Positions 1-12,843 of a DNA stretch of 64,000 nucleotides are shown one piece after another. Both the position numbers and the translations under genes were made by a program. Source of the stretch: Leptospirales bacterium (GTDB lineage Bacteria; Spirochaetota; Leptospiria; Leptospirales; Leptonemataceae). The notes beneath the pieces were generated by a model. The model searched no databases. It saw only the letters and a program-made list of their open reading frames with translations, and had not been told where the DNA came from. The stretch spans positions 1 to 64,000 of the forward strand of contig JAIBBM010000012.1 of NCBI GenBank assembly GCA_019694685.1, in the 5' to 3' direction. Position 1 is the first letter of the stretch; each line of letters starts with the position of its first letter.

Positions 1-1494
1 TTAAAACACAAAGTATATAAACGCCCCGCCTTCCGGAGCTGCAAGCTGTATGAGAGCAAGGATCATAAACGGATAGAACGCGAATTCAAGCCAGATGGGA
101 ACTTTGACCTGGAATTTCTTTTTCTCGAAGTACCAGTAGCCAAAGAGCTGTCCAAGCAGAACCACGACGGTTGAAATCAGAATCGGACGATAGATCGATG
201 GCTGTGGCGCCAGCCCCTGACTGGAAAAAGAATACATTGTCTTGAGATGAGTCCATGCAGCAGAAAGGCTCGGGCTTCTAAACACTACGTGGCTGCTGGT
301 TGTAAAAATAAACATGTAGAGCCACAACGTTAGTTGCACAGGCACAGATATGATTCTTGTAAAGGCGCCGGGTTCTGTGACTGGCTGCCCTTCTTCGCGT
401 TTCTTCTTCCATTCGCCCAGTGTGTTTTCAATGACCAGAATGATTCCCTGGGCTGTTCCCCACACTACATACGTCCAGTTCGCTCCATGCCAGAGGCCGC
501 TGATCACGAAAGAGAAAAGAAGATTCACCTTGTGACGTACAAACGAAACGCGGTTTCCACCCATCGAAATGTAGACGTATTCGCGGATCCATCTGGCAAG
601 AGACATGTGCCATCGTCTCCAGTGGTCCGTGATGGATCTGGCCATGTATGGCATGCGAAAGTTTTCGGGCAGATCAAATCCAAGCCATATGGCCGATCCC
701 CAGGCCATGTCGCTGTATCCTGAGAAGTCTGCGTAGAGCTGGGCAGAAAATCCAAGTGCAGCAAGCCAGGCACCGCTCGAATTATGGAGGAACTGTCCCG
801 CAGGATTTGCGAAGAGCATGTCCACGGCAGGCGAAACGTTATCTGCAATCACTGCCTTCTTAATAAACCCAAGTGCAAACCATCGCGCGCCGGAGCGAAG
901 TCTTTCTAGATCCAATTCCTTATCCGCATAGAGTTGCGGTAGAAATTCGCGAGCAGTGACGATTGGTCCGGCCACCAGCTGAGGGAAGAATGACTTAAAC
1001 AGCGCGAATCTGAGAAATGACTGCTCCACCGGAGTTTTACCGCGCCAAACATCGATCACATAACTCAGTGCCTGGAATGTGAAAAATGAAATGCCCAGGG
1101 GAAGAGCAATTGTATGGAAAACCACATCCGGGTGATAGCCCACAATCCCAACAAGAGTCAGTAGATTGCCCAGGAAAAAGTTATAGTATTTATAGTATCC
1201 GAGCAGTCCAACGAACGTGACAATCACTGCCAGAAGAAGCCATCCTCTCAGTTTGTCGCGCGAACCACCCGGCTGGAGATAAAAAGCAGAACCGTAGGCA
1301 GTCAGAGTGAAGAACAAGAGTAAGAATGCGTAAATCCATTCATAGGATGCAAAAAACACATACGACGCGATCAGCAATGCCGCATGACGGGCTGTGCGAA
1401 GATGGCGTGGTGGAACGAGTCCAGGCAGGATCGCCCAGTGCATGGTGAAAACTGCGGCAAAAAAGAAAAAGAAAAGTGCGCTTGAGAAGATCAT
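1..1494 (-). CDS. MBOAT family O-acyltransferase (AlgI-like)
   Basis: Polytopic membrane protein of 497 aa, the usual AlgI/DltB-type length. It carries the family hallmarks: a DFSGYSDMAWG segment near the middle and the WHGANWTYVVWG segment with the conserved catalytic His. Known family members transfer acyl groups, usually acetyl, across the membrane onto extracytoplasmic polysaccharide or similar acceptors. The stop is exactly at the window edge, so any partner gene (AlgX/AlgJ, SGNH type) would lie outside. The start overlaps the stop of the upstream CPBP gene by 4 nt, suggesting translational coupling. A second MBOAT lies at 7114-8523. The substrate is unknown. Confidence 0.9.
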   Translation of the reverse strand: MIFSSALFFFFFAAVFTMHWAILPGLVPPRHLRTARHAALLIASYVFFASYEWIYAFLLLFFTLTAYGSAFYLQPGGSRDKLRGWLLLAVIVTFVGLLGYYKYYNFFLGNLLTLVGIVGYHPDVVFHTIALPLGISFFTFQALSYVIDVWRGKTPVEQSFLRFALFKSFFPQLVAGPIVTAREFLPQLYADKELDLERLRSGARWFALGFIKKAVIADNVSPAVDMLFANPAGQFLHNSSGAWLAALGFSAQLYADFSGYSDMAWGSAIWLGFDLPENFRMPYMARSITDHWRRWHMSLARWIREYVYISMGGNRVSFVRHKVNLLFSFVISGLWHGANWTYVVWGTAQGIILVIENTLGEWKKKREEGQPVTEPGAFTRIISVPVQLTLWLYMFIFTTSSHVVFRSPSLSAAWTHLKTMYSFSSQGLAPQPSIYRPILISTVVVLLGQLFGYWYFEKKKFQVKVPIWLEFAFYPFMILALIQLAAPEGGAFIYFVF

Positions 1495-2132
1495 GCTTTT
1501 CTAAATCGCCATATGCCAAACAGGCCGCACGCAAAGCAGAGCGCTATGATCCAGAGAGGTATGGTTTCTGGCCACAGTATGCGCTGCGAGATTACAATTG
1601 CGTTGAGAGTAGCGTGAGCCACGAAAGCGGATAGGATCCCGCGCGTGGAAATCGCAATGAAACCCAGAAGCAGACCGCCGGTGAACGCGAAAGGGAGTCC
1701 TGCCAGGCTGAAATGACTCACGGCGAAGAACACTGCCTGTAGCACCACCGCTCTGGCATTTCCCCCGAACCGATCCAGTAGCAAACCTCTGAAAAAAGCC
1801 TCTTCGCATAGGGGGCCTAACAGGACCATACTGAAGAAAGCTCCCGGGAGGTCTACTGGTTCGCGCAAGAACCCTGGCAGCGGTTCTGTCATTCTGCTCT
1901 GGGCCGCAAACAGAAAAAGGCCGATGAATGCCGCACTGAGAGGACGAAAACTGCCCATTTGTGCCGGCATGATGCGTGAAGCAAGTGCGGCGAGGATCAG
2001 GCAGACTGTGGTGGAAAGAGCTCCTGGGAGCGCGGCCGTCCAGGCATTGAGTGGGATGAGGCTCGAGGTAATGAACAGAACACCCAGGTAAATGCCGCAG
2101 AAAAGGAATGCGCTCGACAAATCTGATTTCAT
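1491..2132 (-). CDS. CPBP family intramembrane metalloprotease
   Basis: Membrane protein of about 213 aa with the CPBP (Abi/CAAX protease) motifs in order: EEAFFRG, then HFSLAG within a helix, then the terminal HATLNA. Together these form the intramembrane metal site. The family covers Rce1-like proteases and bacteriocin-immunity proteins; the substrate here is unknown. I chose the Met at 2132 (MKSDLSS) because it starts just before the first hydrophobic helix. An in-frame start at 2150 would overlap the divergent flbD start. It forms a two-gene operon with the MBOAT gene downstream (4-nt overlap). Confidence 0.85.
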   Translation of the reverse strand: MKSDLSSAFLFCGIYLGVLFITSSLIPLNAWTAALPGALSTTVCLILAALASRIMPAQMGSFRPLSAAFIGLFLFAAQSRMTEPLPGFLREPVDLPGAFFSMVLLGPLCEEAFFRGLLLDRFGGNARAVVLQAVFFAVSHFSLAGLPFAFTGGLLLGFIAISTRGILSAFVAHATLNAIVISQRILWPETIPLWIIALCFACGLFGIWRFRKA

Positions 2133-2148
2133 GCGGGAAACAACATGC

Positions 2149-2370
2149 ATGATCCAGCTTCACAGGCTGAACAAGAAAGCTTTTTTTCTGAACCATCGCC
2201 AGATTGAAATCATGGAGGCGAATCCGCATACGGTCATCACTCTGGCCAATGAGAACAAGTATATTGTAGAAGAATCCATTTCTGATATCATTGCCCTGAT
2301 TCGCGATTACGAACGCCAGATCGTCGCAGACCCTGGTTCCGGAATTCACTCGCGTACTCTTTCGCCCTGA
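2149..2370 (+). CDS. flbD: Flagellar protein FlbD
   Basis: 73-aa protein starting MIQLHRLNKKAFFLNHRQIE, followed by TVITLANENKYIVEES, the classic FlbD signature. FlbD is a short protein of unknown biochemical role found in flagellar operons of spirochaetes and Firmicutes, often just before motA/motB/fliL. Start chosen at ATG 2149, where similarity begins; an ORF extension to 2092 lies inside the opposite-strand gene. The next gene is fliL 96 nt downstream; motA and motB are not between them. Confidence 0.85.
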   Translation: MIQLHRLNKKAFFLNHRQIEIMEANPHTVITLANENKYIVEESISDIIALIRDYERQIVADPGSGIHSRTLSP

Positions 2371-2466
2371 ACGGGCTGCTTTCGCTGTAAAAAAGAAGCG
2401 ATGCCTCTGCCAAATTGACCGATTATAAATCAGGACTGCCCGTGGGCGGAGCAGTCGGAGGATTGC

Positions 2467-3012
2467 ATGGCCGGTGAAGATGTCATGGACGAAGAGGAAG
2501 GGGGGAGTGGCGAAGCTCCCGCTGAAGCCGCTGGCTCGCCTGCAAGCGGTCTAGGTAAAGTTGTAAAAATCCTGATCTATGTTGCCCTGGGCGCAGTAGG
2601 TCTGGTCATTATGGCAGTCATCGCGTACTATGTTGCCTCTTTTGCCGCAGCCCGTCAGTACAAAGAGGTTGCATCCATTGCAGTGGTTAAGCCACCTCCA
2701 CCGACTGAAAATTTCAATTTCACAGATGACTTTCGCGTCAACACTGCAGATACCGGAGATCCTCACTTCGTAAAACTCAGACTGAGTCTGGGATATGAAC
2801 AAGGAAATCCAGCGCTTACAGCAGAACTTGGTCAAAGAAGTCCACAGTTAAGAAATATTATCAACTTGATTCTTGCGGGCAAGACGCGCGAAGATCTTCG
2901 CACAGTAGAAGATCAGCTTGAATTGCGCGAAGAGATCAAAGCCTCCGTCAATCACGTTCTCGCGGAAGGTAAAGTCTCCGAAGTGTATTTCAACGAATTC
3001 ATTGTCAACTGA
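2467..3012 (+). CDS. fliL: Flagellar basal-body protein FliL
   Basis: 181 aa with a short acidic cytoplasmic N-terminus, one membrane segment (about residues 34-56) and a periplasmic C-terminal domain containing the FliL pattern (VKLRLSLGYE, PQLRNIINLIL, LREEIKASVNHVL, VSEVYFNEFIVN). FliL sits around the stator and modulates motor torque. An SD-like GGAGG lies just upstream of ATG 2467. It follows flbD and ends with a 1-nt overlap (TGATG) into the glycerophosphodiesterase gene. The fliM/fliN genes that often follow fliL are absent. Confidence 0.88.
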   Translation: MAGEDVMDEEEGGSGEAPAEAAGSPASGLGKVVKILIYVALGAVGLVIMAVIAYYVASFAAARQYKEVASIAVVKPPPPTENFNFTDDFRVNTADTGDPHFVKLRLSLGYEQGNPALTAELGQRSPQLRNIINLILAGKTREDLRTVEDQLELREEIKASVNHVLAEGKVSEVYFNEFIVN

Positions 3013-3680
3013 TGCGTCAGATTACAGTCTACGCTCACCGCGGCAGCGCACTACAGGCCCGTGAAAACACTGCCGCGGCATTTGACTCCGCTCTTCATTT
3101 AGGTTTCAAAGCGTTCGAACTCGATCTGTTGCGTCTTAAAGACGGCACGATCGTAGTCTTTCACGACTTCACTCTGCGCAGACAGTTTGGTAAACTCAAA
3201 CGAATTCGTTCTGTCACTCTCAAAGAATTCAGAAAGATCAATTCTGATTTGCTTACGTTCGATGAGTTCGTGGATCGTTATGCGAAAAAGAAGATCACAG
3301 TAAATTTTGAAGTAAAAGACGATTCTAAAACTCTTCGCGCCATGCTTCCAGGAATTGCGAAATTTCACGATCCTGTCATTTCCTCTTTCCGGCGCACTGT
3401 CGTGGATGCTGCCCTCTGTGAAGGGCTTGAGGCCGGGTATCTATTTCACACTATGCGTGCTTTCAGAGCCGGTCAGAAGAAGATGAAGGGCAATCGCCTT
3501 CATATTTCAAAGAATCTCCTTCGCTCTCGAAACAAGCCAACAAAGGTTTTTTCCTCTTACAATACTCACGTGTACACGGTCAATGATCCAATCGAGGCTT
3601 TGTCTCTCTCAGCATTTCCGTTTGTTCACGGAATCTTTACAGACAAACCAGAAGTCATGCACGCCTTTCAGCGGAAATAG
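3012..3680 (+). CDS. Glycerophosphodiester phosphodiesterase family protein
   Basis: 222-aa GDPD-fold protein. Catalytic and metal-binding residues are visible: H9-R10-G, E18-N-T, E36 and D38 of FELDLL, and H51. The C-terminus keeps the typical TVND and GIFTDKP elements of the TIM barrel. The family hydrolyses glycerophosphodiesters to glycerol-3-phosphate and an alcohol. No signal peptide, so probably cytoplasmic. The start codon overlaps the fliL stop by 1 nt, so it is translationally coupled to a flagellar gene although no functional link is known. Confidence 0.87.
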   Translation: MRQITVYAHRGSALQARENTAAAFDSALHLGFKAFELDLLRLKDGTIVVFHDFTLRRQFGKLKRIRSVTLKEFRKINSDLLTFDEFVDRYAKKKITVNFEVKDDSKTLRAMLPGIAKFHDPVISSFRRTVVDAALCEGLEAGYLFHTMRAFRAGQKKMKGNRLHISKNLLRSRNKPTKVFSSYNTHVYTVNDPIEALSLSAFPFVHGIFTDKPEVMHAFQRK

Positions 3681-3708
3681 TCCTTCTGTTTTGTGCCAGG
3701 CGCGCATC

Positions 3709-4473
3709 CTACAGATACCCTTTCAGGCGATAGGCGATGATCCCTGCGTATTCTTTGAGAGCAATACCGCTTAACGTCATTCCTGCCGGGGCCGGAAAGA
3801 ACGCTTCAATCCCTGGGAATTCATCCAGGATGTAGTAATCCACTGGATAGGGAGTGATCTCGAAGCCCTCTTTTTCAAAACACAGCACACTGCGCTGCAT
3901 GTGAAAAGCGGAAGTCACCAGGATGATTTTTTTAATTCCACGAGCTCTTGCGATTTTGGCTGTTTCAACTGCGTTTTCTGCCGTGTTCCTGGACGCCTTT
4001 TCTGCAATCACTTTGTCCGGTGCGAATCCGTCTTTGATCATCCAGTTTCGCAACGTTTCTGCCTCCGGTGTTCCGATCTGCGAAATCAGCCCCGAGCCGC
4101 CGCTGATGATAAGAACAGGCGCTTTTCGCGCGGCAAGGAGCTCTCTTCCTGCCAGAATCCTGTCTACGGCGGCGGAAAACTCAGGTCTTCCTTTCGCGCG
4201 CGTGAGCGGCGTAACCATTCCGGAAAGAACTACGATGGCCTCCGCGGTGGGTGTTTCCTCCACTGTCAACGGCGCATAACGGTTTTCGAGGCCACGCATG
4301 AGAAACGCGGCAGTGACATAAGTAGATGCTACGGTGACAAGCAGCAGTGCCAGTCCGAACAATCGCCGCAAACGACCCGGTTGCATCTTCCTCAGAACGA
4401 TTCCAGAAAGAATCAAGAAAAGCGGGTAAGGAAACAAAAGGCCTGGAAGAACTTTTGAAAGAAAGAAAAACAT
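3709..4473 (-). CDS. YdcF/ElyC-type DUF218 membrane protein
   Basis: 254 aa with two N-terminal hydrophobic helices (about residues 1-60) and a DUF218 domain: AIVVLSG, VLIISGG, SRNTAENAVETA, and VTSAFHMQRS near the C-terminus. ElyC and SanA relatives act in envelope polysaccharide or undecaprenyl-phosphate metabolism and envelope integrity, but no reaction is firmly assigned. It is transcribed alone, convergent with the GDPD gene, with a 28-nt gap. Function here is family-level only. Confidence 0.83.
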   Translation of the reverse strand: MFFFLSKVLPGLLFPYPLFLILSGIVLRKMQPGRLRRLFGLALLLVTVASTYVTAAFLMRGLENRYAPLTVEETPTAEAIVVLSGMVTPLTRAKGRPEFSAAVDRILAGRELLAARKAPVLIISGGSGLISQIGTPEAETLRNWMIKDGFAPDKVIAEKASRNTAENAVETAKIARARGIKKIILVTSAFHMQRSVLCFEKEGFEITPYPVDYYILDEFPGIEAFFPAPAGMTLSGIALKEYAGIIAYRLKGYL

Positions 4474-5163
4474 TCAGACAACCTCCTGACGCACCATTTT
4501 GTGCGATGCATTGATGGCAATACAGTAATAATACTTTAGAACTACATACTGCAGTCGCTTCGGAAGCAATTCTGTTGACTGCGTCGCAGTTTTCTCGGGC
4601 GCGACCTTTTTTTTCTTGCGTCAAGTATCGACGTCAAACCCGGGACTTACGCGCCGCTTCGAGTATAACGGACAGTGTAGTGAAGAGCGGCAAGGAGGCA
4701 GGCGGATTTAAGATCAACGAGGTGGGCTTTGCCTAGCGGGACTTCGCATTTGAACTTGTGCCTCTGAAGCTTATGGAGGAGAACAAGGACGGCCTCAATC
4801 TGGGCGCACCATCCATTTGTTTTCGGACACCTGATTTGTCTAAGCTGCGTTCTCGGCTCATGGATTAGAAGGTAACGGTAACTGGATAACAGACCATTGC
4901 GGAAGTTCTCTTTCGCATTCCAGGACAATGACGGAAACTGGTTCGCCGCAACTAATGTGCCGCGCAGGTGAACGTCCTAGTATTGTCGAAACTGCTCATC
5001 AGTCCACGAGGTGACGCCACAGAATGTATATTCCGCAACTTGGTTTTGTGGTTGATCAACCTAATCTACGACGATGCAAGCTTGCGGATGCCTCTTGTGG
5101 ATTTCGGTAGCTCATTTTGACAATGAAATCTGGGTTCAGAATATTTGAGACAGGAGTTTGATT
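4474..5163. other. About 690 bp without convincing genes, upstream of the cassette
   Basis: No frame gives a recognisable protein. A minus-strand reading frame (about 4647-4928, open further upstream to a TAG near 4980) has protein-like stretches but no start with a Shine-Dalgarno and no family I recognise; it may be gene debris. The block separates the conserved DUF218 gene from a non-housekeeping cassette, which fits an old insertion junction. No terminal inverted repeats or target duplications were found by eye. Confidence 0.4.
4583..4614 (+). terminator. Possible intrinsic terminator, orphan
   Basis: A GTCGC/GCGAC stem with a 13-nt loop is followed by C and eight Ts. A small alternative hairpin (ACTGC-GTC-GCAGT) with four Ts overlaps it. 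No plus-strand gene ends just upstream, so it may insulate the cassette from antisense transcription or be chance. Confidence 0.3.
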
Positions 5164-5922
5164 TTGGTTGCTAAACCCCGGACGGGCCTTAATTCGAGTC
5201 CCGTGACAAAAAGCGGTCTAACTCTCCCAAGTGCCCCAAGAAAGGATTTCAGACGTAACTTCATCCAGGTAGCGGTATGCGAGTTGCGATTCCCAATTGT
5301 TTTGGAGCTGGAGTCGAAGCCACCTGCACGGTTGCATTCTCAGATCAGACAATCATACCCAAACTACGAAGTCCGCACGAGTTTGACGATTGAACCGCAA
5401 TCGGAAACAAGAGAGCCCGTGTACACATTTTCATCCCGCGAAAAAATATGGACCATAGCGATACGTCCCTACGCCATTGCACTCGAAACTCGCAACTATA
5501 CTTCTTTCACCGATTTCATGAAACGGATGAAGGCTTTGATAGTTCCGGCGGCCAAAGAGTTTGACACGGAAATGTACACTCGGGTCGGGCTGAGGTTCAT
5601 TGATCACATTCCTTTCAATGGTGATCCAGTTAATTCCTGGGTCAAAGAAGACCTCGTTCGTTCCGTAACAGATAGTCATCTTCAGCCCGAATCCTTTTGG
5701 CAAGTAATTCAAGGAAAAGCCTCGAAGGGGAAGTACACCTATCAGCATGGAATTCATCCGCAGCAATCCGGGACTTACGTTCTTGACTTCGATTTCTACA
5801 AAGAGGACGTGGATCTGGACGTTACAGAGCGATTAATAAAGGACTTGCACGAACAGAGTCGGGATCTCTTTTTTTGGTCGCTGGGTCAGAAAAGCTTGGA
5901 CTTCATGGCATCAGAAGGGTAG
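5164..5922 (+). CDS. TIGR04255 family protein (cassette gene 1)
   Basis: About 252 aa, the typical size of the sporadically distributed TIGR04255 family. The family pattern is visible: VAVCELRFP near residue 40, repeated beta-rich segments ending FTDFMKRMKAL, then YTRVGLRFIDHI mid-protein. No catalytic residues are known for the family. Start chosen at TTG 5164, 7 nt after AGGAG (5152-5156); TTG 5158 is too close. The next gene starts 4 nt after the stop, so it leads a three-gene operon. Family assignment is from memory of the pattern; function unknown. Confidence 0.72.
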   Translation: MVAKPRTGLNSSPVTKSGLTLPSAPRKDFRRNFIQVAVCELRFPIVLELESKPPARLHSQIRQSYPNYEVRTSLTIEPQSETREPVYTFSSREKIWTIAIRPYAIALETRNYTSFTDFMKRMKALIVPAAKEFDTEMYTRVGLRFIDHIPFNGDPVNSWVKEDLVRSVTDSHLQPESFWQVIQGKASKGKYTYQHGIHPQQSGTYVLDFDFYKEDVDLDVTERLIKDLHEQSRDLFFWSLGQKSLDFMASEG

Positions 5923-5926
5923 CCGA

Positions 5927-6349
5927 GTGTTTCCAATCGACGTATCATCATATATTACAGATCGAGAACCGCAGAGGTTCGAACTTACAGAGAGGCAATT
6001 TCCGGTAAGGAGAGATCGTCCGATTTGGGAAACTGTTACCGGTGGTCAAGCCTTCCAGAGCTTTTCAACACCGATGGTGACGGGAGCAGCCTATGGGCGG
6101 GTCGTTGATTCAACGCACAACGTTTTAGAAAGTTTACCGGATCAAAGGGTCGAACTCTTGGTTAGACAGTTTTCAGGCGGCCTATCGAGAGAGGAATTTC
6201 GTAGACTCGAACTGCTAAATCAGCGCCTGACGAAACTTCATCCACCGGTTACAAATGACGAGTATGTGCAACTCGAGAAGATTGTTGATCTCACTGAAAA
6301 AGCGCAGAAAAACAACGCCGCCATACGTAGACGGCTGAACCTGGATTGA
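5927..6349 (+). CDS. Hypothetical protein, 140 aa (cassette gene 2)
   Basis: I do not recognise this protein. The first half is polar and non-helical with a short Gly/Ser/Thr-rich stretch; the second half (about residues 70-140) is charged and looks alpha-helical, possibly a coiled coil, ending in a basic tail. No signal peptide or membrane segment. GTG start, 4 nt after the TIGR04255 stop; its stop overlaps the HNH start by 1 nt. Strict coupling to both neighbours suggests an adaptor, antitoxin or complex subunit, which is inference only. Confidence 0.65.
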   Translation: MFPIDVSSYITDREPQRFELTERQFPVRRDRPIWETVTGGQAFQSFSTPMVTGAAYGRVVDSTHNVLESLPDQRVELLVRQFSGGLSREEFRRLELLNQRLTKLHPPVTNDEYVQLEKIVDLTEKAQKNNAAIRRRLNLD

Positions 6350-7053
6350 TGTCGAAGCAAGTGGCGTTTCTCTACCCGAAGTGGAAACATCGCCGCCAGC
6401 TATCTCCCGAACATCAAAGCAACTATAAGGGGTACAAGCCATTTCTCCAGGAGGAGTTTGCGTGTCACTGTGTCTATTGTCGAACGCCAGACACGATGAA
6501 GGGATACGATGCGTTCGGCGTTGAGCATTACTTGCCCAAATCTACTCATCCCGAACTTGAACTTGAATACTCCAACTTGTACTATGCTTGCAATTCGTGC
6601 AATTCCCTCAAAGGGGACCTTGTTCCCACAAGAGACCTATTTATTCCCAACCCGTGCGATCACATCATGTGGGATCATTTGCGATGCTGGCAATATCATG
6701 TTGAAGGCAGAAGCCAGGCGGGTCGTTTTACGATCGAACTTCTCAATTTGAACAATGATGAGAGAATGATGTTTCGGAAAGCTGTTATCGATTCGATTGC
6801 AGCCGTGAGACACAAATTAGCGAGCTTGAGAATCACAGAAAGGGAGATTAGAGAAAAAATGGAACTTCATTCAAGTAGGAAGCTCAACAAGAGTCTCATC
6901 GTAATCTTGAATGCGATCGATGAGTTGGAGAATTCTCTACTAATCCTGCAAGGTGAGAGACGAGCACGATTCGATAGCGATAACAAGCCCCCCCATGACA
7001 TTTTGAACCAAATCCGTGGAAAGTTCCAGAGCTTGCGGTCTTGGTTCTATTGA
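6349..7053 (+). CDS. HNH endonuclease family protein (cassette gene 3)
   Basis: 234 aa with an N-terminal HNH/beta-beta-alpha-metal nuclease domain. Zinc-knuckle pairs are C41/C44 (CVYC) and C81/C84 (CNSCNSLKG), with the catalytic H60 in VEHYLPK and N85. This layout resembles PtuB/TIGR02646-like HNH proteins that accompany defence ATPases, but no ATPase is here. The C-terminal half is helical and charged. ATG 6349 overlaps the preceding stop; TTG 6346 is the alternative. No restriction-modification methylase lies nearby. The gene is the last of the cassette and is convergent with the MBOAT gene. Confidence 0.82.
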   Translation: MSKQVAFLYPKWKHRRQLSPEHQSNYKGYKPFLQEEFACHCVYCRTPDTMKGYDAFGVEHYLPKSTHPELELEYSNLYYACNSCNSLKGDLVPTRDLFIPNPCDHIMWDHLRCWQYHVEGRSQAGRFTIELLNLNNDERMMFRKAVIDSIAAVRHKLASLRITEREIREKMELHSSRKLNKSLIVILNAIDELENSLLILQGERRARFDSDNKPPHDILNQIRGKFQSLRSWFY

Positions 7054-7113
7054 AAGCGATAGAGGTCGGCGGATCATCCGATTTCGCATTACTCCTGGTG
7101 AAAACACATGCTT

Positions 7114-8523
7114 TTAGAACTTAAAGTAAATAAAGGATCCAGTTACATCACCGTAAAGATTTACAAGTAAACCAATAGAGAAAGTGAGCACGATGACCAT
7201 CGCAGTGGAGAAGCGGGGCCTCGCGCTGATCCATTCGCGAAATACGGGATAGTACTGAAACACATTCATCGCATACCCCAGCACAGAAAGGCCGATCAGT
7301 GTTTCAATAGCTCCTCCTGGAATTCCACGCTGCCACGACAGTACACCTTTGATGATTGCGAAGGTATGATGCATACTCGGCGATGCGAAGATCAGACAGC
7401 CAATGGAAAATACTACGTAAGTATATAGTATTCGCAGAAAGTTGAATCTACCTTCCGGTAGGAGTCTGAATCTGGAAAATCCCCACATGCGCTCGAGTGA
7501 CAGGACAAGGCCGGTGTACAATCCCCATACGATCGTATTGTAGGCTGCTCCGTGCCACAGTCCACCCACAGCAAACGTGATCATGAGATTCATATACGTG
7601 CGAAAGGGAGTAACTCGTGATCCGCCCAGCGGAATGTAGATATAATCGCGCAGCCAGAAAGAAAGAGTCATGTGCCATCTCTGCCAGAGCTCCTGATAAC
7701 TTCTGGCAACGAATGGTCCGCGAAAGTTCTCCGGGATGTGAAATCCGAGGAGCTTTGCAATTCCTCGCGCCATGTCCGTATATCCGGAGAAATCCCCGTA
7801 AATCTGGAAGGCCCAGACGAACGGAATGAGCAGCAGGAAGATCGCATCGTATTTTTCAGGATTGTGCCAGATCGCAGAAGTGGCGGCGCCCAGTCTGTCT
7901 GCGATGAGCACTTTTTTTACAATGCCCATCAGGATCAGGAGGCAGGCGTTCAGCATTCTGGTTCTGTCAATGCTAGGGTTGTCTATTTGCGGAATGAGAT
8001 CCGGCGCTCTCATAATGGGCCCGGCTACAAAGTGCGGGAAGAAGAGAGTGAACACGTAGAACTTCATGGGAGTTACTTTTTCCCGGATCATTCCTGTGTA
8101 ACAATCTGTGATGAAGGCGATCACCTGAAACGTGTAGAAGCTAATCCCGATTGGAAGGATGATTTCAAACTTATAGTCCGCGACCCAGCTGTTTCGCAGA
8201 TCAATCAGATAGGCGCTGCCTGTGATGTGCCCAACCGTTTCAGCCAAAAGGTAAAAATACTTAAATATTACCAGGACCATCACATCGACTACGATCCCGA
8301 ATATCAGAACTTTCTTGTTCTTCTTGTCTATGAGGCTCATCCCAACATAGTAGTTGATGATGAGAAGTGCCAGGAACATGAGCAGAAACGGCACACTGTA
8401 CCAGCCGTAAAACAGAATGCTCGTGATGATGATCATGTACTGCTTCGCACGCACTGGCAGGAGCCAGTAAAACGAATACACTGCGAAGAACAGCAGGATG
8501 AAGATTCCTGAGTTAAAAAGCAT
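7114..8523 (-). CDS. MBOAT family O-acyltransferase (AlgI-like)
   Basis: 469-aa polytopic protein, starting at MLFNSGIFILLFF (8523), the standard AlgI N-terminus. A longer frame to 8619 would overlap the divergent pepF start. Hallmarks are DFSGYTDMARG, FRGPFVARSYQELWQRWHMTLS and the catalytic-His segment GGLWHGAAYN. It should transfer acyl groups to an extracytoplasmic acceptor. It is a paralogue of the gene at 1-1494 but differs in the N-terminus and loops. No SGNH or AlgJ/X-like partner is adjacent, so the acceptor is unknown. Confidence 0.9.
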   Translation of the reverse strand: MLFNSGIFILLFFAVYSFYWLLPVRAKQYMIIITSILFYGWYSVPFLLMFLALLIINYYVGMSLIDKKNKKVLIFGIVVDVMVLVIFKYFYLLAETVGHITGSAYLIDLRNSWVADYKFEIILPIGISFYTFQVIAFITDCYTGMIREKVTPMKFYVFTLFFPHFVAGPIMRAPDLIPQIDNPSIDRTRMLNACLLILMGIVKKVLIADRLGAATSAIWHNPEKYDAIFLLLIPFVWAFQIYGDFSGYTDMARGIAKLLGFHIPENFRGPFVARSYQELWQRWHMTLSFWLRDYIYIPLGGSRVTPFRTYMNLMITFAVGGLWHGAAYNTIVWGLYTGLVLSLERMWGFSRFRLLPEGRFNFLRILYTYVVFSIGCLIFASPSMHHTFAIIKGVLSWQRGIPGGAIETLIGLSVLGYAMNVFQYYPVFREWISARPRFSTAMVIVLTFSIGLLVNLYGDVTGSFIYFKF

Positions 8524-8613
8524 GGCGCTGGTTCGAGCAAGGATCAGGACACGCGCTGATTTGCAAACTGTAAATTCTGGTGGACTACGGATAGTCCAGG
8601 CATACTTGAAGCC

Positions 8614-10398
8614 GTGCAAGAACTCTCTGAAAAGCCCGGCCTCCCTGCCTGGGATCTAAAAGCAATCTATCCGGATTCATCTTCTCGCGACGCGGATGTC
8701 GCACTGCTGCGCAGCCTCGTTGTCAAGTTCGTGGAAGAATACCGCGGCCGCCTGGGCTCTCTGGACGATGATGGTCTGGTCCGGGCTTTTGAAGCTCATG
8801 CAAAGATTTCTAACACATCTTCGCGCATCATGGTGCATGCATATCTGACCTTCGCAGAGAACACGGCAAGCACTGCCGCGCAAGCTCTTCTGGCAAGTGC
8901 GGAGGAACTCAGTGCTGAAGTCTGGGGCCAGCTTGTGTTCTTCGAGCTCGAGCTGGGGCGATTGCCGGGCCAGTTCTCTTCTCGCATGGATGCGTACGCG
9001 TACTTTGTTCAGAAATGCGTACAGAGAAATGCGCATAACCTTACGGAGGAACTCGAAGCCTACGGAATCGAAAAGAATCTGACCGGAGTTCAGGCAATGA
9101 CCGGCCTCTTTGATGAGGTGATGGGATCTCTTTCTTTCGAAGACAAAAATGCGTCGGGAGAGGATACAACCTTCACCCAGGAAACCGCGCTCTCTGTGCT
9201 CCATCATGCGGATCGCGCTTATCGCCTTCGCATCTACAGTAGATTTCTCGAGACTGTAGGTTCGCAGAAGACTGTACTAACCAGTATTTATAACAACGTC
9301 TTACTCGATCACAGGCTAGATTGGAAGAGGCGGAACTACACCGGTGCGATGGAGCCTCGCAATCTATCCAACCAGGTGAGTTCGCGTGCAGTCGATTCGA
9401 TGCTCGAGATTGTTCAATCCAGCTATCGCATCGTCAGGAGATACTACACCTGGAAAGCACGTTATGCGAAGATTGACCAGTTTACCAACGCGGACATCTA
9501 TGCTCCCGTTCTTCCGCGAACCAGTCCATACGATTTTGCTCATGCGCAGGATTCAGTGATTCGTGCTTACGCCGGATTCGATCCTCAGGCAGGTTCGATC
9601 GTTTCTGAATTTTTTAAGACAGCGAGAGTGGATGCGCGCGTCATTCCGGGCAAACGTCCGGGTGCTTTTTGCTACGGTGCTTCCCCTGAGCTGGATGCAT
9701 TCGTGCATCTAAACTACACCGGCGATCTTCGCTCCATTCAGACTCTCGCGCATGAACTGGGACATGGATTGCATCACCAGCTGTCACGCAGTCAAAACCA
9801 TGTGAATTTCGGAACCCCTCTTGTGACCGCTGAGACTTCCTCTGTGTTCGGAGAGATCTTGCTCAACGAGCTTCTGATTCAAGAGGCAAGATCAAAGGAA
9901 GAACAACTGGCTCTCCTCTGCGCGCAAATGGAAGGAATTCTGGCCACTGTATTTCGCCAAACAGTGCTTACGCGTTTTGAAGAAAGAGCTCACGCAGAGA
10001 GAGATTCAGGACGTGTTTCCGCGGATCGATTCAGCGAACTGTGGCTGGAAGAAAATGGAAAGCTCTATGGCGACGCAGTATCCATGGTGGATGCGTACAA
10101 ATGGGGATGGGCGTATATTCCGCATTTTGTTCACACTCCATTTTACTGTTACGCCTATTCATTCGGGCAACTCCTGGTTCTCGCATTGTATCAGGAGTTT
10201 CGCACGCACGGAGATTCGTTTAAGGACGGTTACATGAAGTTGCTATCGCTTGGTGGATCAAGAGCGCCTGCAAAACTTGTAAGCGAAACAGTGGGTCTGA
10301 ACATTGAATCAGACGATTTCTGGCTTCGCGCTGTGAGTTTCATCGAGAACATGATGGACAGAATTGAATCGATTGGGCCGGGCCCGGGAGTCGCGTGA
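8614..10398 (+). CDS. pepF: Oligoendopeptidase F (M3 family)
   Basis: 594 aa, normal for PepF. The zinc site HELGH is at residues 380-384, with the third ligand Glu expected in the TAETSSVFGEILL segment that follows. The C-terminal half has the typical YSFGQLLVLALYQEF. The enzyme is a cytosolic metallopeptidase cleaving short peptides. GTG start at 8614, since the upstream frame has no better candidate. It is divergent from the MBOAT gene (90 nt between starts) and followed after 3 nt by the thioesterase. Confidence 0.92.
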   Translation: MQELSEKPGLPAWDLKAIYPDSSSRDADVALLRSLVVKFVEEYRGRLGSLDDDGLVRAFEAHAKISNTSSRIMVHAYLTFAENTASTAAQALLASAEELSAEVWGQLVFFELELGRLPGQFSSRMDAYAYFVQKCVQRNAHNLTEELEAYGIEKNLTGVQAMTGLFDEVMGSLSFEDKNASGEDTTFTQETALSVLHHADRAYRLRIYSRFLETVGSQKTVLTSIYNNVLLDHRLDWKRRNYTGAMEPRNLSNQVSSRAVDSMLEIVQSSYRIVRRYYTWKARYAKIDQFTNADIYAPVLPRTSPYDFAHAQDSVIRAYAGFDPQAGSIVSEFFKTARVDARVIPGKRPGAFCYGASPELDAFVHLNYTGDLRSIQTLAHELGHGLHHQLSRSQNHVNFGTPLVTAETSSVFGEILLNELLIQEARSKEEQLALLCAQMEGILATVFRQTVLTRFEERAHAERDSGRVSADRFSELWLEENGKLYGDAVSMVDAYKWGWAYIPHFVHTPFYCYAYSFGQLLVLALYQEFRTHGDSFKDGYMKLLSLGGSRAPAKLVSETVGLNIESDDFWLRAVSFIENMMDRIESIGPGPGVA

Positions 10399-10401
10399 GC
10401 C

Positions 10402-10932
10402 ATGTCTGCTAAAACGCCGCGCTCTTCGTCTGTAGAAACTCGTCATTTGGTAATGCCAGATCATGCAAATCACTATGGCACGTTATTCGGCGGCACTCTC
10501 ATGGGATGGATTGATATGGTCGCGGTGATGGTGGCCCAGCGCCATTGTGGGCGCGAAGCCGTCACTGCGAGTGTGGATCGTCTAAATTTTCTTTCTCCCA
10601 TTTCTGTGGGCGATCATGTCCTTCTTCGCGCAAGCGTGAATTACACCGGTCGCACTTCTATGGAGATAGGCGTTCAGGTGTCGCGTGAAAATCCTTATAC
10701 AGGGGAAGTGGTTCGCGCAACCACCGCGTACTTGACCTTTGTTGCTCTGGACGAAAACAAGAAACCAGTGCCCATCCCTCCTGTGGAGCCTGAAACAGAA
10801 ATAGAGAAAAGACGATTTCGAAACGCCATCCTGCGCGTAGAAGCAAACAGAAACCTGGTAAAGAAAATGAGGGAGGAAATGCAATCTTCGTCCGGTCCTG
10901 ATGCTGCTGGTTCTCCGCCTCAAGACAAATGA
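10402..10932 (+). CDS. Acyl-CoA thioesterase, hotdog fold (YciA/BFIT type)
   Basis: 176 aa. The hotdog-fold signature is clear: VMPDHANHYGTLFGGTLMGWID, where Asn and the GG helix form the active site, then SVDRLNFLSPISVGD and VVRATTAYLTFVALDE. The family hydrolyses acyl-CoA to free acid and CoA in the cytoplasm. The C-terminal 50 residues are charged and family-variable. The gene follows pepF with a 3-nt gap, so they are likely cotranscribed. Confidence 0.9.
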   Translation: MSAKTPRSSSVETRHLVMPDHANHYGTLFGGTLMGWIDMVAVMVAQRHCGREAVTASVDRLNFLSPISVGDHVLLRASVNYTGRTSMEIGVQVSRENPYTGEVVRATTAYLTFVALDENKKPVPIPPVEPETEIEKRRFRNAILRVEANRNLVKKMREEMQSSSGPDAAGSPPQDK

Positions 10933-10978
10933 GACATATCGTGGCTCTCCGGGTGCGTTCTGCGGGCCAAAAAAGGGG

Positions 10979-11007
10979 TTGTCATCCCTAAATCCCCTGT
11001 CTAAGTT
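10979..11007 (+). promoter_or_regulatory. Possible sigma-70 promoter for the Fur-family gene
   Basis: TTGTCA (10979-10984) is a good -35; a 17-nt spacer leads to TAAGTT (11002-11007), a poor -10. It lies 18 nt upstream of the regulator ATG. Assigned by eye. Confidence 0.3.
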
Positions 11008-11024
11008 GATAGCGGTTACTGCCG

Positions 11025-11459
11025 ATGGAAGACCAGAAGAAGTATGGCATGTGCAAGCGAGAAGTGGCGGAGCTGCTTCGGTCGCATGACATCAATCCTA
11101 CTACGCAGCGCATTGAAATCGCGCATTTGATTTTCCAGAAAGCCCAGCACCTTTGTGCAGATGAAATCCTCGCAGAACTCAACAAAGAATACGAGCAAGT
11201 CAGCCAGGCAACAGTATACAACACTCTGAAAGTATTTGTAGATAAGAAAGTAGTCCGCGAGCTAGTATTTGCGCCGGACAGAATCTACTATGATTCCAAC
11301 ACAAGCCATCATCACCATTTCATAGATGTAGACACCGGTAAGATTTATGACGTTTCCGGAGACTGCGTCAAATGCCCTGAGCTCAGCTACGTAGATCACC
11401 TCAAAGCAGAGGTGCTTGAAGTGAGTTTGATCCTCAAGGGTCGCATGCCTCAGGCATAA
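11025..11459 (+). CDS. Fur family transcriptional regulator
   Basis: 144 aa. The N-terminal winged helix contains the Fur pattern PTTQRIEIAHLIF and VSQATVYNTLKVFVDKKVV. The dimer/metal domain has the His-rich SHHHHFIDVDTGKIYDV. Only one CxxC (CVKC) is present; the second pair that completes the structural zinc site of classic Fur/PerR is absent. It could be PerR-, Irr- or Fur-like, and the effector cannot be decided from the sequence. It sits 58 nt upstream of cydAB in the same direction, so redox or iron control of cytochrome bd is a reasonable inference. Confidence 0.88.
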   Translation: MEDQKKYGMCKREVAELLRSHDINPTTQRIEIAHLIFQKAQHLCADEILAELNKEYEQVSQATVYNTLKVFVDKKVVRELVFAPDRIYYDSNTSHHHHFIDVDTGKIYDVSGDCVKCPELSYVDHLKAEVLEVSLILKGRMPQA

Positions 11460-11517
11460 TCACTCACGCATCGTCTTTTTGTTTTGACTCTGAAACACGC
11501 TTCCAATAGAAAGCGGC

Positions 11518-12843
11518 ATGGATGACGCGCTTTTAATCGCCCGCCTGCAGTTCGCGTTCACCATCACGTTTCATTATCTTTTCCCCCAGCTGACCATGGG
11601 CCTTGCACTTTTGATCCTGGTGCAAAAGGCAATGTTCATGTTCACCCGGCAACTCTCCTACAATCATGCAGCGCAATTCTGGGCTCGCATCTTTGCTGTA
11701 AATTTTGCGATGGGCGTGGTGACCGGAATTCCAATGGAATTCCAGTTCGGAACAAACTGGGCCAGGTTTTCTGTCTTCGCGGGCGGAGTGATTGGCCACG
11801 TTCTTGCCATGGAGGGAGTATTTGCGTTTTTCATAGAATCTGCGTTCCTGGGTCTTTTTCTTTTTGGAGAAAGACGCCTTGGGCAGCGTGCTCACACCTT
11901 CACAGCATTCATGGTATTCCTTGGATCCTGGATGAGTGGATACTTGATTATCATTACGAATGCCTGGATGCAACATCCCGTTGGTTTTGAAGCTGCGTCA
12001 GGTAAGCTTGAGCTTGTTCGATTTGCGGATTTGTTTTTCAACCCCTGGGCTGGCTGGCAATATTTGCACACTATGTTCGGTGCAGTGGTCACTGCATCTT
12101 TCGTGATGGCGGCCACGGGTGCGTACTACCTTCTCTCAAATCGCGACATCAGATACGGCGAAATCTTTCTGAGAGTTGGGGTCACGTGCGGGCTGGCTGC
12201 CTCCGTGCTTATGATTTTTCCGACGGGCGACGGGCAGGGAAAGAATGTGGCGCAGTATCAACCTGTTACTCTCGCCGCGATGGAAGGACTCTTTGAAACC
12301 GGGAAAGCCGCAGAGATGATTTTGATCGGCCAGCCGGATATGGAACGCCTCCGCATTGACAATCCAATTCGCATTCCAGGAGTACTCAGTCTCCTGACGT
12401 ATTCGCGCTGGAACGCGGAGGTAAAAGGGCTCCAGGAATTTCCGCGCGAACTCTGGCCAACGAACATTCCTCTTCTCTATTATAGCTATCACATCATGGT
12501 TGGTCTGGGCACATACATGGCCGCGGTGATGGCGTTGAGCGCTCTGTTTTTGTTTCGCAGGCATCTCTTCGACCATAAGTGGCTTCTGTGGATTTTGATG
12601 CTTTCTTTTCCGGCGCCTTACATCGCGAATACGGCAGGCTGGATGACGGCGGAACTGGGGAGACAACCCTGGCTCATTTACGGAATCTTGAAAACTACCG
12701 CTGGCGTTTCGCCTACTGTGTCCGCGGGAAATAGCCTGTTTACTCTGATGGGATTTCTTGGAATGTACGGACTCCTGGGTACTCTTTTCTTGTTTGTGAT
12801 TGCGCGCGAAATCCAAAACGGCCCGGAACACGGACATCATTGA
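11518..12843 (+). CDS. cydA: Cytochrome bd ubiquinol oxidase subunit I
   Basis: 441 aa, shorter than E. coli CydA, which implies a short Q-loop (CIO-like). The N-terminus has the expected helix with heme-ligand candidate H19, then GIPMEFQFGTNWARFS and GVFAFFIESAFLGLFLFG, both diagnostic. Quinol oxidase of the inner membrane reducing O2 to water with high oxygen affinity. cydB begins 2 nt after its stop. No cydX-like small ORF was found after cydB and cydCD are not here. Confidence 0.94.
   Translation: MDDALLIARLQFAFTITFHYLFPQLTMGLALLILVQKAMFMFTRQLSYNHAAQFWARIFAVNFAMGVVTGIPMEFQFGTNWARFSVFAGGVIGHVLAMEGVFAFFIESAFLGLFLFGERRLGQRAHTFTAFMVFLGSWMSGYLIIITNAWMQHPVGFEAASGKLELVRFADLFFNPWAGWQYLHTMFGAVVTASFVMAATGAYYLLSNRDIRYGEIFLRVGVTCGLAASVLMIFPTGDGQGKNVAQYQPVTLAAMEGLFETGKAAEMILIGQPDMERLRIDNPIRIPGVLSLLTYSRWNAEVKGLQEFPRELWPTNIPLLYYSYHIMVGLGTYMAAVMALSALFLFRRHLFDHKWLLWILMLSFPAPYIANTAGWMTAELGRQPWLIYGILKTTAGVSPTVSAGNSLFTLMGFLGMYGLLGTLFLFVIAREIQNGPEHGHH

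Follow-up and report, generated by a model that had tools for sequence, protein, structure and literature searches.

A three-gene cassette of a TIGR04255 protein, a small coupled protein and a PtuB-like HNH nuclease: a likely undescribed anti-phage system

Genes of the cassette

A cassette of three genes, here termed g1, g2 and g3, was analyzed in a stretch of 64,000 nucleotides (nt) from a Leptospirales bacterium (contig JAIBBM010000012.1, positions 1 to 64,000), referred to as the window. All three open reading frames (ORFs) lie on the + strand at 5158-7053, where a first-pass annotation of the sequence had placed them. g1 (5158..5922) encodes a TIGR04255 family protein, g2 (5927..6349, GTG start) a small coupled protein of 140 amino acids (aa), proposed here to be an adaptor or antitoxin, and g3 (6346..7053) a PtuB-like HNH nuclease with a long helical C-terminal part. 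The close spacing reported in the annotation holds for g1 and g2, which are 4 nt apart, but g2 and g3 overlap instead of being separated by a gap. The overlap is 1 nt if g3 starts at ATG 6349, the likelier start, or 4 nt from TTG 6346. The suspected A/T richness of the cassette is borne out by a GC content of 0.470, against a window mean of 0.506 (standard deviation 0.014, equal-sized stretches), which is in the lowest 1%.

The g3 protein matches the Pfam model PF01844 with 28.8 bits (cut-off 21.4). Its zinc knuckles and catalytic His had been described as complete, and residues C42, C45, C82, C85, H61 and N86 are indeed invariant in 30 of 30 aligned sequences, which include that of the window. 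Residues are numbered from TTG 6346, so that H61 is the H60 of the annotation, counted from ATG 6349. PtuB is the best match of g3 among PADLOC models (76.6 bits), among PDB sequences (E 2.6e-5) and in structure comparison (9nnb, aligned over residues 10-203). Thus g3 qualifies as the PtuB-type HNH protein by which Septu is in part defined.

PtuA, the ATPase partner of PtuB in Septu, was not found beside the cassette in any of 30 genomes or records, 29 of which gave some match, with the ATPase part (~300-720) of model PDLC00292, a model that is loose (it fires in 12/14 control genomes) and was applied to some short contigs. In the genome of the window the same ATPase part has no match at E up to 0.001. 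A Walker A pattern is present in 7 of 142 proteins from the cassette flanks, and none of these was judged PtuA-like by reading.

The g1 protein belongs to TIGR04255, with 103.9 bits against the NCBIfam cut-off of 30. Its better start is TTG 5164, 7 nt 3′ of AGGAG, which gives 252 aa, the same length as the database copy P0006. No Pfam match was detected at E up to 1. The AlphaFold2 model (predicted local distance difference test score, pLDDT, 92.8) has a predicted saddle-like alpha/beta fold, and its Foldseek matches are AdoMetDC and TBP. The TBP match is a weak fold match (E 2e-3, probability 0.99, template modelling score 0.31 by query to 0.41 by target, root-mean-square deviation about 10). 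Conserved residues in an alignment of 35 g1 sequences include the acidic D210 and D212.

The g2 protein was called unrecognized in the annotation and stays so: nothing scores over cut-off in Pfam, NCBIfam, PADLOC or PHROGs (best E 0.068), and neither g1 nor g2 has a PADLOC match at E up to 1. In an alignment of g2 with 33 ORFs that occupy its position at other loci (called lengths 144-240 aa, in some cases too long at the start) and with the database protein P0003, the likeness is in the C-terminal part; the last ~65 aa are better conserved and the N-terminal part is variable. Proteins P0002-P0005 share the g2 C-terminal part (39-61% of it, at 89-100% identity) and differ at the N-terminus, which for P0003-P0005 had no counterpart in any other protein. 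It seems likely that recombination has taken place within g2.

Recurrence of the cassette and other branches of TIGR04255

A profile built from the 35 aligned g1 sequences was used to locate g1 at 61 loci in genome contigs and four in virus-collection contigs. An HNH gene is found 3′ of g1, after a middle ORF, in 35 of these 65 loci, and thus the gene layout is beyond chance. The possibility raised in the annotation, that the families might not be co-located in other genomes, is therefore not what was found: the three are found side by side in distant bacteria, in a layout other than those it had named (Septu, restriction-modification, retrons). Hosts, according to record titles, include Myxococcales, Gammaproteobacteria, Betaproteobacteria and Deltaproteobacteria. 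The 35 HNH loci include two broken Cupriavidus plasmid copies (L039 and L052), and the locus set has repeats, since L073 is identical to L035 in both g1 and g3, as is the HNH gene of L044 to that of L031. Among the 30 loci without HNH, five are contig-end g1 genes or fragments (L011, L019, L020, L025, L059), one keeps g2 with no HNH detected by tblastn (L030), and 24 belong to other branches. In L020 (5161-6375) the TIGR04255 sequence runs into GGDEF-like sequence, a possible contig misjoin.

In a g1 tree, which is a quick tree only, all HNH-labelled rows and the window group together in a clade of 37 rows (SH-aLRT 98). Four of its rows carry no HNH label: L030 and three loci at contig ends. 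Third-gene labels come from motif patterns and reading, several being assigned by hand, and the tree omits L020, L033, L044, L059, L063, L064, L073, L131, L132, L144 and L146, which are chimeric, short or repeated or have no g1 match. Distances between g1 sequences correlate with those between g3 sequences (r 0.88, 29 rows; reached in 0 of 5000 permutations). In all 29 cassette genomes or records (29/29), HNH matches above 100 bits are found only at the cassettes; the next match, at 65 bits, is the broken copy L052, and the others are below 43 bits.

Pairing with HNH does not extend to TIGR04255 as a whole. A class survey with the NCBIfam model was positive in 35/369 genomes; 30 of 45 listed places were fetched and g1 was found again in 27. 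The sole HNH type in this survey is that of the genome at its center. Other branches for the most part display g1, a small coupled gene and a third gene in this order, and it is the third gene that varies: by reading, the 30 survey loci comprise 11 of a type termed QDCD, up to seven of a two-gene type (“PHGN”), two PIN, one HNH and nine unclear. The two PIN third genes, at L123 and L135, score over the Pfam cut-offs. QDCD third genes, named for a T-Q-D-C-D-like motif, are seen at L065, L066, L069, L117, L121, L138 and others, and for those examined neither Pfam, NCBIfam nor PADLOC gave a usable match. The third gene of L139, counted as unclear, is HEPN-like by eye and has no Pfam match. Middle genes of other branches show weak helix-turn-helix matches, below cut-off.

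The third gene changes across branches and is kept within the HNH branch, which makes g1 look like a hub that has a constant partner in that branch and different ones in others. The concern that TIGR04255 might pair mostly with metabolic genes did not materialize; by reading, such genes lie 3′ of g1 in 4 of the 23 distant loci listed (L049, L051, L055, L056). At L049 and L051 the family adjoins GNAT, nicotinamidase and nicotinate phosphoribosyltransferase-like genes, again by reading, and may have a different role there.

Insertion site and genomic surroundings

The cassette lies between a DUF218 gene, which we take to be YdcF-like, and an MBOAT gene, presumably AlgI-like, both on the opposite strand. 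That conserved genes stand on both sides, as the annotation had stated, agrees with the Pfam results, in which ten neighbors (1-12843) all belong to housekeeping families. No defence family, methylase, reverse transcriptase or PtuA was found among these ten, and thus the window site is not a defence island. Rfam, which does not hold every retron RNA, gave no match in 3600-8700. A promoter-like site, TTGACA-17-AATATT (5117..5145, + strand, 10/12 matches), lies just 5′ of g1; it is weak evidence, and four such sites were observed in the region against 2.8 expected. Two MBOAT genes lie near the cassette, at 1-1494 and 7114-8619, and the second has 17 matches in the genome of the window.

Of 61 genomes searched, some of the others being incomplete, the window's own is the only one with TIGR04255 and the only one with g2. 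About 0.1 kb separates the homologs of AlgI and YdcF in the congener G001, where their order is the same and the site is uninterrupted. In the congener G002, ~4.8 kb of other genes lie between the two homologs (L105, G002 C5, 1767-6163). This interval is therefore a variable site, and the cassette is either a local gain or was lost in relatives. It is probably mobile, because g1 and g2 are absent in 60 relatives, the G001 site is uninterrupted and the GC content is low, and because the cassette occurs in four virus-collection contigs and phage genes are found among the flank proteins.

Enrichment near known defence genes, which the annotation had proposed to examine, is suggested by the flanks. 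Proteins from cassette flanks (142 of 172 listed proteins of at least 140 aa, from 22 of 29 loci) matched 199 PADLOC models, versus 40 for same-contig controls (131 of 144 proteins, 16 regions); both sets are raw ORFs, some surely non-genes. The flank models shown are mostly type I restriction-modification, with two or three members each. By Pfam, the 142 flank proteins include three integrases, one terminase and one phage scaffold protein. By reading, restriction or methylase genes lie within 6 kb at L016, L022, L028 and L047, an integrase-like gene is near L071 and a terminase-like gene near L074. The flank context fits defence but, with such small numbers, is suggestive only.

Proposed function and alternatives

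The three genes are likely an undescribed anti-phage system. The cassette and TIGR04255 are unnamed in the literature searched, which excluded supplements and preprints. The annotation had stated that the cassette matches no known layout; this stands for g1 and g2, which are unlike the partners in Septu, but not for the effector, a relative of PtuB. Retron type I-A (Ec78/Eco7: reverse transcriptase, msr-msd, PtuA, PtuB) has a nuclease of the same family and supplies the best structural match, 9nnb, but no retron component was detected in the surroundings described above. The PADLOC candidate PDC-M01 shares a weak HNH similarity between g3 and M01B (31.7 bits), whereas g1 and g2 match none of its models.

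We put at about even the chance that this conserved cassette acts against phages as a mobile system, with g1 and g2 predicted to restrain the PtuB-like HNH nuclease and govern its activity, the job of PtuA in Septu. Defence itself, every binding step, the trigger and the target are what we infer. The saddle-like g1 would serve as the subunit for sensing or holding and may bind the N-terminal part of g2, whose better conserved C-terminal part would in turn bind g3 and keep it inactive. Upon infection the grip of g1 on g2 might be disturbed and g3 released. The freed g3 could then cut nucleic acid, either tRNA or phage DNA, so that the phage no longer grows, probably at a cost to the cell. PtuAB is reported to deplete tRNA-Tyr and abort infection (PMC11555353, PMC13096335), and the H and N of its HNH motif are required.

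If this is correct, a different and unrelated pair of proteins controls a nuclease that has so far been studied alongside an ATPase (and a retron), and the trigger would then seem to be set by the partner and not by the nuclease. TIGR04255, a family so far uncharacterized, would gain a function, and several undescribed effector families would be indicated. It is a more tentative proposal, one we hold somewhat short of even, that TIGR04255 marks a class of tripartite immune modules with a saddle-fold hub, a coupled adaptor-antitoxin and a swappable effector, and that in the HNH type the hub has replaced PtuA. The proposed effector slot would hold PtuB-like HNH nucleases, PIN RNases, the QDCD family and others.

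The alternative that survives best, although it is unlikely, is an addiction module of the toxin-antitoxin-chaperone (TAC) type, with g3 as toxin, g2 as unstable antitoxin, g1 as a chaperone protecting g2, and defence as a secondary effect. Known TAC modules are described as following such logic (PMC5105189, PMC11618068), and TAC and CmdTAC share with the wider TIGR04255 family three coupled genes, a small middle protein and several kinds of third gene. The PIN domains among third genes and the weak helix-turn-helix matches of other branches' middle genes are consistent with this. However g1 has no sequence match to any Pfam model, hence none to that of SecB, although a fold-level relation is possible, and the g2 of the HNH type has no DNA-binding domain recognized by Pfam.

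Direct restriction, with g1 as a saddle that binds and marks foreign DNA and g2 as the link through which the HNH nuclease is delivered, is improbable. The TBP-like matches of g1, the nuclease in the same operon and the restriction-modification neighbors at some loci argue for it. Against these, the fold match is weak, conserved g1 residues include the acidic pair, the same g1 family precedes PIN third genes, and the unit, unlike restriction-modification, has neither a cognate methyltransferase nor another self-protection gene, methylases being nearby only at some other loci.

A selfish homing nuclease, or some other role outside immunity such as regulation or repair, is less probable again. 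HNH nucleases are common in mobile elements, and some TIGR04255 relatives adjoin metabolic genes, but g3 is inherited jointly with g1 over a long divergence, and in the window the three genes form an operon, are intact and do not interrupt a host gene.

The tripartite anti-phage system is favored most clearly over a Septu variant with a PtuA-type ATPase acting from elsewhere in the genome, which is very improbable: g3 is akin to PtuB along most of its length and apparent PtuA-PtuB pairs lie elsewhere in some cassette genomes, such as those at G087 C78, G073 C66, G076 C3 and G081 C11, but the window genome lacks a match to the ATPase part at E up to 0.001, those pairs carry their own PtuB-like part, and at the cassettes the HNH nuclease is accompanied by g1.
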